DNA from: Rubrivirga marina
Lineage (GTDB): Bacteria; Bacteroidota; Rhodothermia; Rhodothermales; Rubricoccaceae
Length of the DNA: 64,000 bases
Assembly: GCF_002283365.1 (NCBI RefSeq)
Contig: NZ_MQWD01000001.1
Location: forward strand, 2,543,858 to 2,607,857
Reading direction: 5' to 3'
The notes beneath the pieces were generated by a model. That model saw only the letters and a list, made by a program, of their open reading frames with translations, did no database searches and was not told the origin of the DNA. Each line of letters opens with the position of its first letter. The stretch's first letter is position 1. Of this stretch, positions 12,106 to 49,533 are shown one piece after another. A program made the position numbers and the translations under genes.

Positions 12106-12690
12106 TTAGTCGCCGCTCGGGGTCCGGTCGGCGACGGGGGCCCAGACGGGCTCGGCGACGCCGGCGGCGTGGTTGACCCAACGGGCGAGCGTGAAGAGAA
12201 AGTCCGAGAGCCGGTTGAGGTAGTGGAGCGCGTCGGCGGAGATCTCCTCCAGGGCCGCCGTCTCGACGACGTGGCGCTCGGCGCGGCGGCAGATCGTCCG
12301 GGCGAGGTGGAGCGCGGCAGCGGCCGGCGTGCCACCCGGCAGGACGAAGTGCTTGAGCGGCGTGAGGTCGGACGTCAGCGCGTCGATGTCGGCCTCCAGC
12401 TGCTCAGTGTGCGCCGCGTCGATCCGGGGCACCGGGTATTTGACGTCGCCGGGCGAGGCGAGGTCGCCGCCGAGGACGAACAGCTCCTCCTGGATCCGGC
12501 CGAGGAGGGCGTCGGCCCGCTGGCGGAGCGCGTCGTCGGCGTCGGCGAGCGCGGCGCGGGCCATCCCGAGCGCGGCGTTGGCCTCGTCGACAGTGCCGTA
12601 GGCGGCGATGCGGGGGTGACTCTTGGCCACGCGGCCGCCGCCGAAGAGCGCCGTCGTGCCGTCGTCGCCGGTGCGGGTGTAGACCTTCAT
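12106..12690 (-). CDS. PduO-type cob(I)alamin adenosyltransferase
   Basis: 194 aa from the ATG at 12690. It transfers the adenosyl group of ATP to cob(I)alamin, making adenosylcobalamin in the cytoplasm. Motifs in order: MKVYTRTGDDGTTALFGG at the N-terminus (ATP-binding T-R-T-G-D-x-G-x-T), ERHVVETAA with the conserved R, and ALHYLNRLSDFLFTLARWVN. The frame is open to 12756, but the longer start lacks family similarity. It is immediately preceded by a 7-bp-period repeat and by an ABC ATPase gene on the same strand 69 nt upstream, which suggests joint corrinoid handling. Confidence 0.92.
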   Translation of the reverse strand: MKVYTRTGDDGTTALFGGGRVAKSHPRIAAYGTVDEANAALGMARAALADADDALRQRADALLGRIQEELFVLGGDLASPGDVKYPVPRIDAAHTEQLEADIDALTSDLTPLKHFVLPGGTPAAAALHLARTICRRAERHVVETAALEEISADALHYLNRLSDFLFTLARWVNHAAGVAEPVWAPVADRTPSGD

Positions 12691-12782
12691 CGTGGGGCGT
12701 CGGGCGTGAGTCGTGGGGGAGGGGAGCGGTGCCGCCGCGGTCCTCGAGAACCCCACGGACTACGCACCACGCGCCACGCCAA
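12691..12782. repeat. Inverted repeat of 7-bp-period units between the adenosyltransferase and ABC ATPase genes
   Basis: Positions 12691-12718 are four 7-bp units each beginning CGT (CGTGGGG, CGTCGGG, CGTGAGT, CGTGGGG). Positions 12755-12782 are four 7-bp units each beginning ACG (ACGGACT, ACGCACC, ACGCGCC, ACGCCAA). The second block is approximately the reverse complement of the first, so the pair forms a ~92-bp imperfect palindrome. Its right arm covers the last codons and stop of the ABC ATPase, and its left arm touches the adenosyltransferase start codon. Confidence 0.7.
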
Positions 12783-37713: not shown

Positions 37714-37812
37714 CGCGCCGCGCGCCACCGCGTGAAGCTTCGGTGGGGGAGGGGGCGCTGCCCCGGCTCTGACTGAACCTTCACCGGGTGCGTGCCTATC
37801 CTCACTTTTCCC

Positions 37813-37862
37813 GCCGGGCGCAGTGCCCGGCCCGCGCTCCGGCGCACCAACCGTAGTTGGTG
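37813..37862 (+). promoter_or_regulatory. Two perfect 7-bp hairpins in the long rpmC-rpsQ gap
   Basis: GCCGGGC (37813-37819) pairs with GCCCGGC (37825-37831), loop GCAGT. CACCAAC (37845-37851) pairs with GTTGGTG (37856-37862), loop CGTA. The upstream part of the gap also has GGGGC/GCCCC around GCT and a GTGAAG/CTTCAC pair (near 37731 and 37780). The 201-bp spacer is exceptional between two genes that usually almost touch; a structured leader for rpsQ and the spc genes is possible. No convincing promoter box is seen. Confidence 0.4.
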
Positions 37863-37914
37863 GGGTCCCGGCCCACCAAGCGAATAGCAACCCGCCCGCG
37901 AGGGCACCCAGGCT

Positions 37915-42184: not shown

Positions 42185-42218
42185 AACGGGGAGAGGGGGC
42201 TCGCGCCGCCTCGCCCTG

Positions 42219-42246
42219 ACGCCTCACGCACCACGCAGTACGAATC
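42219..42246. repeat. Four 7-bp-period units directly before rpmD
   Basis: Four consecutive 7-bp units each beginning ACG (ACGCCTC, ACGCACC, ACGCAGT, ACGAATC) end 2 bp before the rpmD ATG. They share the ACGCACC unit with the tract at 12755-12782. No inverted partner is found nearby. Confidence 0.6.
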
Positions 42247-45577: not shown

Positions 45578-45600
45578 CGGCCCCCTCGGGCTGACTCGCT

Positions 45601-45676
45601 CCACCTCGGCACCGAGGCGGACGGGCTCGGCGCGGGATGGGCGGGCTTTTCACGCCATCTGGGGCACATCTGCCCC
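45601..45676 (+). promoter_or_regulatory. Structured leader between infA and rpmJ
   Basis: A GCCTCGG-type stem, CCTCG/CGAGG with a GCAC loop flanked by two more pairs (45601-45620), and a perfect stem GGGGCA (45661-45666) with TGCCCC (45671-45676), loop CATC, lie in a 166-bp spacer. It precedes rpmJ-rpsM-rpsK-rpsD-rpoA-rplQ, the alpha genes. In E. coli the corresponding leader binds S4; whether this one does is unknown. No promoter box was assigned. Confidence 0.35.
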
Positions 45677-45743
45677 CGCGCGGAGCGTTCTTCCAGGCCG
45701 GCCTCTCCCGGCCGACCCCGACACTCATCGACTCAGACGACCC

Positions 45744-47689: not shown

Positions 47690-48667
47690 ATGGCACAGAT
47701 TCAGCTCCAGATGCCCGACGGCGTTCAGGTCGAGGAGATGAACGAGACGTATGGGCGGTTCGTCGTCCAGCCGCTCGAGCGCGGCTACGGCGTGACCATC
47801 GGGAACGCGTTTCGGCGCGTTCTTCTCTCGTCCCTCTCCGGCACGGCCATCACGGCCGTCCGCATCGACGGCGTCCAGCACGAGTTCTCGACGATCCCCG
47901 GCGTGACCGAGGACGTGACCGACATCATCCTCAACCTCAAGGGCGTCCGGTTCCGGGCCGAGGAGGAGGACGAGGGCTCGGTCTCGATCCACCTCGAGGG
48001 CCAGGGCGACTGGACCGCGAAGGACATCGCCGACAACACGGCGGACTTCGAGGTCCTCAACCCCGACCACCACATCGCCACGCTCGCCGAGGACGCCGAC
48101 GTCCGGATCGACCTCCGCATCGAGCAGGGCCGCGGCTACGTCGGCGCCGAGGAGAACAAGCGGGCCGACGACCCGATCGGCGTGGTGGCCATCGACGCCA
48201 TCTTCACCCCCATCCTCAACGTCCGCTACAACGTCACGCCGACCCGCGTTGGCGACAAGATCGACTACGAGCGGCTGACGCTCGAGGTCGAGACGGACGG
48301 GTCGCTCTCGGCCGAGGACGCCCTCACGAACGCGGCGGCCATCCTCCGCGATCACATCGGCCTCTTCGTCGAGGTCGACACGTCGGCTGGCGAGGACGAG
48401 GAGGAGACGGAGGTCGACGCCGAGGTCCAGCGCGTCCGGGCCATCCTGGGCCAGTCGGTCGACGACCTCGACCTCTCGGTCCGCGCCCAGAACTGCCTCC
48501 GCGCCGCCTCGATCAAGACGATCGGCGACCTCGTGCGCCGGGAGGAGAGCGAGATGCTCAAGTTCCGGAACTTCGGCCGCAAGAGCCTCCTCGAGCTCGT
48601 CCAGGTCCTCGACGAGCGGGGCCTCCGCTTCGGCATGGACGTCGAGCGCTACGGCGAGTTGAACTAG
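47690..48667 (+). CDS. rpoA: DNA-directed RNA polymerase subunit alpha
   Basis: 325 aa from the ATG at 47690. The N-terminal dimerisation domain has [65 protein letters not shown]. The C-terminal domain, after an acidic linker ([14 protein letters not shown]), has [56 protein letters not shown], which binds UP elements and activators. Followed by the largest palindrome of the cluster. Confidence 0.97.
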
Positions 48668-48670
48668 ATC

Positions 48671-48732
48671 GGTACGGGGTACACGGTACGGGACGCGTCC
48701 CGGCCGGTCCCCAGTACCCTGTACCAAGTACC
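48671..48732. repeat. 62-bp palindrome built of 7-bp GGTAC/GTACC units between rpoA and rplQ
   Basis: The left arm (48671-48692) has GGTAC at 48671, 48678 and 48685. The right arm (48711-48732) has GTACC at 48714, 48721 and 48728. Both have an exact 7-bp period, so three 5-bp pairs alternate with 2x2 internal loops when the strand folds. The centre contains the perfect palindrome GGGACGCGTCCC (48690-48701). The element nearly fills the 68-bp gap and ends 3 bp before the rplQ ATG. Confidence 0.8.
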
Positions 48733-48735
48733 GAA

Positions 48736-49533
48736 ATGAAACACGGAAAGAAGATCCTCAAGATCGGCCGGACCGCCTCCCACCGGAAGGCCACGCTCCA
48801 GTCGATGTCGGCCGCGCTCCTCGAGCACAAGCGGATCACGACCACGTTCGGCAAGGCCAAGGCGCTCCGCCGGTTCGTCGAGCCCATCATCACGCACGGC
48901 AAGGACGACTCGACGCACTCGCGTCGCCAGGCCTTCCGGAAGCTCAACGACAAGGCGGCCGTCAAGCGGCTCTACGACGAGGTGGCTCCCGAGGTCGGCG
49001 ACCGGCCCGGCGGCTACGTCCGGATCGTGAAGCTCGGCCAGCGGGCCGGCGACGCGGCCGAGATGGCCGTCGTCGAGCTCGTCGACTTCAACGACGTCCA
49101 GCCGGAGGGCACGGGCGGTTCCAAGAAGCGGACGCGTCGCGGTGGCGGCGGCGGTCGCCGGCGGAGCAAGTCCTCGACCCCGGCCGCCTCGACCCCGGCC
49201 GCCTCGACGCCGACGGAGGCCGCCCCGGCCCCGTCGACCGAGCCCGCCGAGGCGGAGCCGGTCGAGGAGACGCCCGCAGACGAGACGACGGCGGAGGCCC
49301 CGGCCTCCGAGGAGTCGCCCGTCACGGACGCTCCCGCCGAGGACGCGCCTGAGAACCCGAAGGCCGAGGCCGCCGGCAGCGACGCTGCCACGCCCGACCC
49401 GGCCGGCGCCGTCCAGGTCCCGCCGCACGCCGACGAGCACCCGGACGCCGCCCAGGGCGCACCGACCCAGACCGGCGAGCCCGGCCCGGGCGCCGACGCC
49501 GAGAACCTCGGCCGGAGCCACGACAACCGCTAA
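48736..49533 (+). CDS. rplQ: 50S ribosomal protein L17 with long low-complexity tail
   Basis: 265 aa. Residues 1-~118 are normal L17 ([99 protein letters not shown]). Then comes a basic Gly/Arg patch ([16 protein letters not shown]) and about 125 residues of Ala/Pro/Glu/Thr-rich sequence that includes the tandem [18 protein letters not shown]. The tail is presumably disordered and surface exposed near the tunnel exit. Last gene of the supercluster. Confidence 0.93.

Follow-up and report, generated by a model that had tools for sequence, protein, structure and literature searches.

The window, that is, the whole 64,000-nucleotide stretch of the Rubrivirga marina genome analysed here, carries rpoA at positions 47690 to 48667 of the plus strand (assigned from its open reading frame and alignment with relatives; 99% identical to that of Rubrivirga sp. 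SW42617_bin_3, the nearest named record) and rplQ at 48736 to 49533 of the same strand (an open reading frame with matches in 100 of 103 genomes of the order). The 68 nt between them lack a Shine-Dalgarno-like sequence and are filled by a repetitive element, as the preliminary description had proposed. In order, the gap reads GGTACGG GGTACAC GGTAC - GGGACGCGTCCCGGCCG - GTCCCCA GTACCCT GTACCAA GTACC. The left heptad array (48671 to 48689, plus strand; from the sequence and pattern matches) begins 3 nt after rpoA and comprises three cores at a 7-bp pitch. It is followed by an inter-array loop (48690 to 48706), 17 nt by arm parsing and containing off-centre GGGACGCGTCCC at 48690-48701, and then by GTCCCCA (48707 to 48713), a degenerate fourth right-hand heptad recognized from a minus-strand match and from the fold, in which it is the predicted partner of GGGAC. 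The right array (48714 to 48732, minus strand; from the sequence and the minus-strand pattern) is convergent to the left one and ends 3 nt before rplQ.

The exact 7-bp spacing reported earlier was confirmed, with GGTAC at 48671, 48678 and 48685 and GTACC at 48714, 48721 and 48728; on the minus strand, the triple GGTAC pattern also matches 48707-48725 at one mismatch. The description of the locus as a 62-bp palindrome stands in that the array is inverted, but not in the sense of perfect symmetry, as the best arms (48669-48692 and 48711-48734, 18 nt apart) are 24 nt long and 83% complementary, and GGGACGCGTCCC, previously taken as the centre, lies about 6 nt away from the centre of symmetry. The bases between the cores are unpaired across the arms, being GG and AC on the left and TT and AG in the reverse complement of the right arm. 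With up to three mismatches allowed, the triple GGTAC pattern has seven matches in the window, all within this element, whereas 0.9 are expected and none of 100 shuffles reached seven. A period-7 palindrome score that is blind to the unit sequence was 30 for the gap, compared with a mean of 18.2 and a maximum of 25 among 60 shuffles. Because of these shuffle results, chance can be ruled out. The predicted fold of the element has an energy of -39.7 kcal/mol (z of about -3.6 to -4.4). Rfam gave zero matches to the gap at E values up to 1, and a known structured RNA was rejected as a candidate, the sole nearby match being sub-threshold, irrelevant and outside the gap.

The preliminary description also proposed a repeat family present on both arms, and its members were indeed found in the genome of the window and beyond it, both among congeners and across other families of the order; the element is thus neither unique nor absent from sister species. 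The triple GGTAC pattern occurs at additional loci of the same genome, two of which are inverted pairs as well. Across the genus and family, up to 89 triple-pattern matches per genome were found at one mismatch, compared with 0-1 for the reversed control, and exact triple-GGTAC matches occurred in 11 of 198 genomes of a phylum-wide sample. The window itself contains a second period-7 inverted array at 12690 to 12779, CGTG-type on the left and CACG-type on the right, detected by unit-blind scans, and a period-7 scan found an array with a right arm only, ACGCCTC ACGCACC ACGCAGT ACG, in the S5-L30 gap (42214 to 42244), of a type shared with a congener according to gap comparison. Two other gaps in the window hold conserved sequence of a different appearance. 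In the L29-S17 gap (about 37714-37914), GTAGTTGGTGGGGTCCCGGCCCACCAAGCGAATAGCAACCC is near-identical across three congeners within an otherwise variable gap and resembles a conserved leader or an RNA element; in the infA-L36 gap (about 45578-45743), GGGCTTTTCACGCC with a GAGCGTTCTTCCAG stretch behind it is kept in three congeners and is possibly a promoter or leader. The same genome also carries two neighbouring Y1-type transposase genes (G000:C10:79065-79787), unlinked to heptad elements.

The class is broader than the GGTAC unit. A unit-blind scan with arms fixed at 24 nt, which replaced a looser scan that gave many coding false positives at high GC, detected 34 period-7 inverted arrays in a 1.3-Mb set and none in shuffled sequence; control periods of 4, 5, 8, 10 and 11 yielded 0, 0, 4, 3 and 4 arrays, respectively. 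Over about 2 Mb from seven genomes there were 74 such arrays at period 7, compared with 0, 11, 3 and 8 at periods 5, 8, 10 and 11. Periods 6, 9 and 12 were excluded as controls because codons inflate them. Element density ranged from 7 per Mb in the genome of the window (G000) to about 91 per Mb in G008, although these figures are rough because parts of the sample were picked for carrying the ribosomal operon and some G008 contigs for pattern hits. There is therefore little doubt that the rpoA-rplQ element belongs to a class of inverted heptad arrays dispersed among intergenic gaps.

Several genomes showed further peculiarities of repeat content. Heptad arrays are very dense in G008, G039, G112, G116 and G207, and in G008 even CTTGGNNCTTGGNNCTTGG, the reversed control pattern, finds 42 matches, as it coincides with a unit of that genome. 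G004 holds long perfect direct heptad arrays (L052, L053, L060, L061, L065, L072 and L074) with units such as (GGATGAG)n, (TAATGCG)n, (CTACTGG)n, (CAGTAGC)n and (CCCAGTA)n, some of which have flanks in common, for example GACAGCTTTA ahead of (CCCAGTA)n. A very abundant short palindrome, GCCTCTGGCGCCAGAGGC, with its half GCCAGAGGC, lies in gaps and genes of one related genus (G004, L051-L078 and L127) and recalls HIP1-like highly iterated palindromes.

The elements share one architecture, a loop of about 19 nt (the median of 79 elements) between two convergent arrays that number about four heptads each. Exactly four units make up the right array of 48 of these elements; the left array has four units in 30, three in 29 and 3-5 in 72. 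All 14 GGTAC elements are convergent with GGTAC first, 10 of them are 4+4, and their loops are mostly 15-27 nt. Within a heptad, a core of 4-6 nt is kept and 1-3 positions are free, and one genome uses many different cores. The variance of mismatches among heptad columns was 2.23, compared with 1.06 under uniform decay, and the unevenness was individually significant (P<0.05) in 34 of 80 elements. As mismatches cluster in certain columns, the arrays are more than decaying perfect repeats; growth by plain duplication of whole units, which the preliminary description had offered, is accordingly insufficient, because the decay of perfect repeats would not spare identical core positions. In the GGTAC elements, 10-11 of 38 free positions are complementary across the arms, whereas 14.3-14.6 are expected. 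For the two most variable columns, arm-to-arm matches show a slight excess (269/640 versus 228 expected), and some inter-arm pairing or copying therefore occurs. Transition-type mismatches (G-T or A-C) make up 45% of the mismatches between arms. A separate asymmetry is that 5' arms tend to hold more G and T than 3' arms on either strand (36/46; 43 vs 15); this polarity was seen in all seven sampled genomes and is explained by none of the models considered here.

Orthologous gaps show that the layout stays constant while the unit differs between gaps and between species. At rpoA-rplQ, the congener G003 has GGTTCGG GGTTCGG GGCTCTG GGTTC ... GAACCCA GAACCCC GAACCCT GAACTC, an architecture identical to that in the window with the core A-T replaced by T-A in both arms. 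Decayed GGTAC forms occupy this gap in G001 and G002, the units CGGTTNN, GATTNNN, GCTTNNA, GCTNTTG and GTTTCTG were found in G004, G008, G006, G017 and G039, respectively, and the gap holds no element in many other members of the order. Elsewhere in the ribosomal protein operon, GCNGTCA units lie in the L36-S13 gap of G001 and G003 and are absent from G000; the L3-L4 gap is 7 bp in G000 and G001 and 82 bp, with CACGCAT-type heptads, in G003; and in the comparison of operon gaps CCTGATN heptads were found at S11-S4 in G003 only. These differences indicate that elements of the operon have been gained and lost gap by gap, each with its own unit. No target-site duplication was seen in the single empty-site comparison, that at L3-L4. 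Homologous loops in two species would mean that a single inherited element had changed its units in concert, not that a new one had been inserted; loop likeness gave P=0.19 at rpoA-rplQ (G000 versus G003) and P=0.07 at L36-S13 (G001 versus G003).

Placement relative to genes was assessed with a simple purpose-made gene caller. By it, 60 of 68 intergenic elements lie in co-directional gaps, 6 in divergent and 2 in convergent ones, against a background of 782, 163 and 108 gaps, respectively. The co-directional enrichment (P=0.004) is modest, at 60 elements compared with 52.5 under a genome-weighted expectation, and convergent gaps are depleted (2 compared with about 6-7 expected; P=0.025). Most of the co-directional elements (48 of 60) come to within 10 nt of a gene end, and 25 of the 60 have genes no more than 12 nt away on both sides. 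The distance to the stop codon is 1-3 nt in the window and has a median of about 5 nt across elements, the latter resting on a codon model trained on the longest open reading frames that miscalled the strand of rpoA.

We tentatively prefer the reading that the array is recognized at the DNA level, at odds somewhat below even. The multi-site DNA target that the preliminary description had given as its alternative is favoured because the cores are kept, 1-3 positions per heptad are free, and the free positions of GGTAC elements are non-complementary between arms. A putative DNA-binding or DNA-processing factor would step along the array in units of 7 bp, thereby keeping core and pitch, while the arrays would turn over through gain, loss and replacement of 7-bp units; such turnover could leave different units in one gap across species with the 4+4 convergent layout retained, and the predicted transcript hairpin would be a by-product. 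Several points weigh against this model: no protein for the arrays has emerged, several specificities or one loosely specific factor would be required because one genome uses many cores, and the two most variable columns show the slight excess of arm-to-arm matches noted above. A bolder version, which we consider doubtful, is that a cellular or selfish agent both writes and rewrites the inverted 4+4 arrays, with their 7-bp sites, in intergenic gaps. If so, the agent would alter unit sequence while keeping pitch, number and polarity, and orthologous gaps across the order would present the same architecture with unrelated units.

The strongest rival, unlikely in our judgement but deserving serious weight, is that the arrays are mutational products without function. 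Replication slippage favouring 7 nt would generate them, template switching at hairpins would supply the inverted partner, and they would persist wherever gaps tolerate them. This suits units that vary by gap and species and that come and go as at L3-L4, the long perfect direct arrays present in a related genus, the share of transition-type arm mismatches and the report, as given in citing accounts, that the long simple repeats of many bacteria are most often heptads, with polymerase slippage as the proposed cause (Mrazek 2007, cited in PMC4679880 and PMC4692102). Against it stand conserved core positions beside free ones, free positions in GGTAC elements that are uncopied between arms and a narrow array number of about four; moreover, neutral convergent gaps would be expected to carry arrays, yet are depleted of them.

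It is rather improbable that the element acts as an intercistronic RNA hairpin that, between the rpoA stop and the rplQ start, tunes translation coupling, mRNA stability or processing. The strong predicted fold is in its favour, as are the rpoA-rplQ gaps of most heptad-bearing genomes, which outfold their shuffles, and the mostly co-directional placement close to gene ends; any palindrome, however, folds well. Selection on a sense-strand hairpin would be expected to leave more G-U pairs than A-C mismatches, but in 61 oriented elements there were 63 G-U and 82 A-C, a comparison whose power is limited by the mixed ages and units of the elements. A function for the transcript hairpin suggested earlier is therefore unsupported by comparison, and the lack of a G-U excess indicates a feature at the DNA level. 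The many relatives without an element at rpoA-rplQ and the wholesale unit replacement tolerated there also speak against an RNA role. That the element is a palindrome mobilized by a transposase, like REPs or MITEs, is very improbable. The elements are dispersed, palindromic and present or absent at orthologous gaps, but loops are no more alike within a genome than between genomes (mean scores of 9.3 and 9.4), so copy-and-paste of whole elements is unsupported; matches to a Y1-type transposase (PF01797) are absent from the element-bearing G001 and G006, and the rpoA-rplQ sequence has no GTAG or CGTC head at the foot of the palindrome. Least probable of all is an intrinsic terminator or attenuator, which a GC-rich stem-loop right behind a stop codon might suggest and which the preliminary description had considered, as the gap has no U-tract or terminator-like site, an essential gene of the same operon begins within 3 nt downstream and the class, depleted between convergent genes, is not positioned as terminators are.

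Among known systems, REP and REPIN palindromes are short, dispersed and intergenic, have a conserved head and a linked RAYT transposase, and lack a 7-nt period. The present elements are likewise short dispersed intergenic palindromes, but the REP head and linked transposase were not found here. The cyanobacterial STRR heptads, which Mazel is said to have described in 1990, are reportedly 7-nt tandem units in gaps; they resemble our arrays in this respect and differ in being direct and built from few fixed units. The TAACTGA repeats of Beggiatoaceae and some Bacteroidetes and Cyanobacteria (MacGregor 2015, PMC4679880) are also heptads in gaps, including those of ribosomal protein operons, and often lie a few nucleotides from a start codon; they differ in consisting of one unit in direct orientation, with a single inverted case reported. 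The repeats of Mrazek (2007) share period 7 and a mostly intergenic location with ours; as described in the accounts that cite them (PMC4679880, PMC4692102), they are direct, and those accounts mention neither an inverted 4+4 layout nor the core and free pattern. Why the long simple repeats of many bacterial genomes are most often 7-nt ones has long been asked. At rpoA-rplQ, a single gap that shows one layout but six or more different units can be compared between species. The comparison tells constrained features (the 7-nt pitch, the number of units at about four, the convergent polarity and the core) from free ones (the sequence of the unit and 1-3 of its bases), and slippage, RNA hairpin and protein-target models therefore become mutually testable.

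The closest counterparts are the inverted heptameric intergenic repeats (GGGANTN)n of Xanthomonas (Rehm et al. 2015, PMC4692102). There are 183-186 GGGANTN arrays per genome, most commonly four units long and with 70-75 convergent inverted pairs; they lie near the stop codon of the gene upstream, in gaps that mostly separate aligned genes, and usually at the same positions in Xcc and Xac (PMC4692102). Both sets have tandem 7-nt units with conserved and free positions, close convergent pairs of arrays, a preference for four units and proximity to the upstream stop. In contrast to the one G-rich unit studied per Xanthomonas genome, whose G-tracts can form G-quadruplexes, many units are used here per genome and per operon, GGTACNN or others, without a general G-quadruplex pattern; the unit is replaced at orthologous gaps, and the phylum differs. 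The elements of the Rubrivirga type are the same kind of object as the Xanthomonas repeats but a different repeat family. As far as the literature was searched, their novelty lies in the phylum, in the variety of units that a single genome and operon hold and in the exchange of one unit for another at orthologous gaps.
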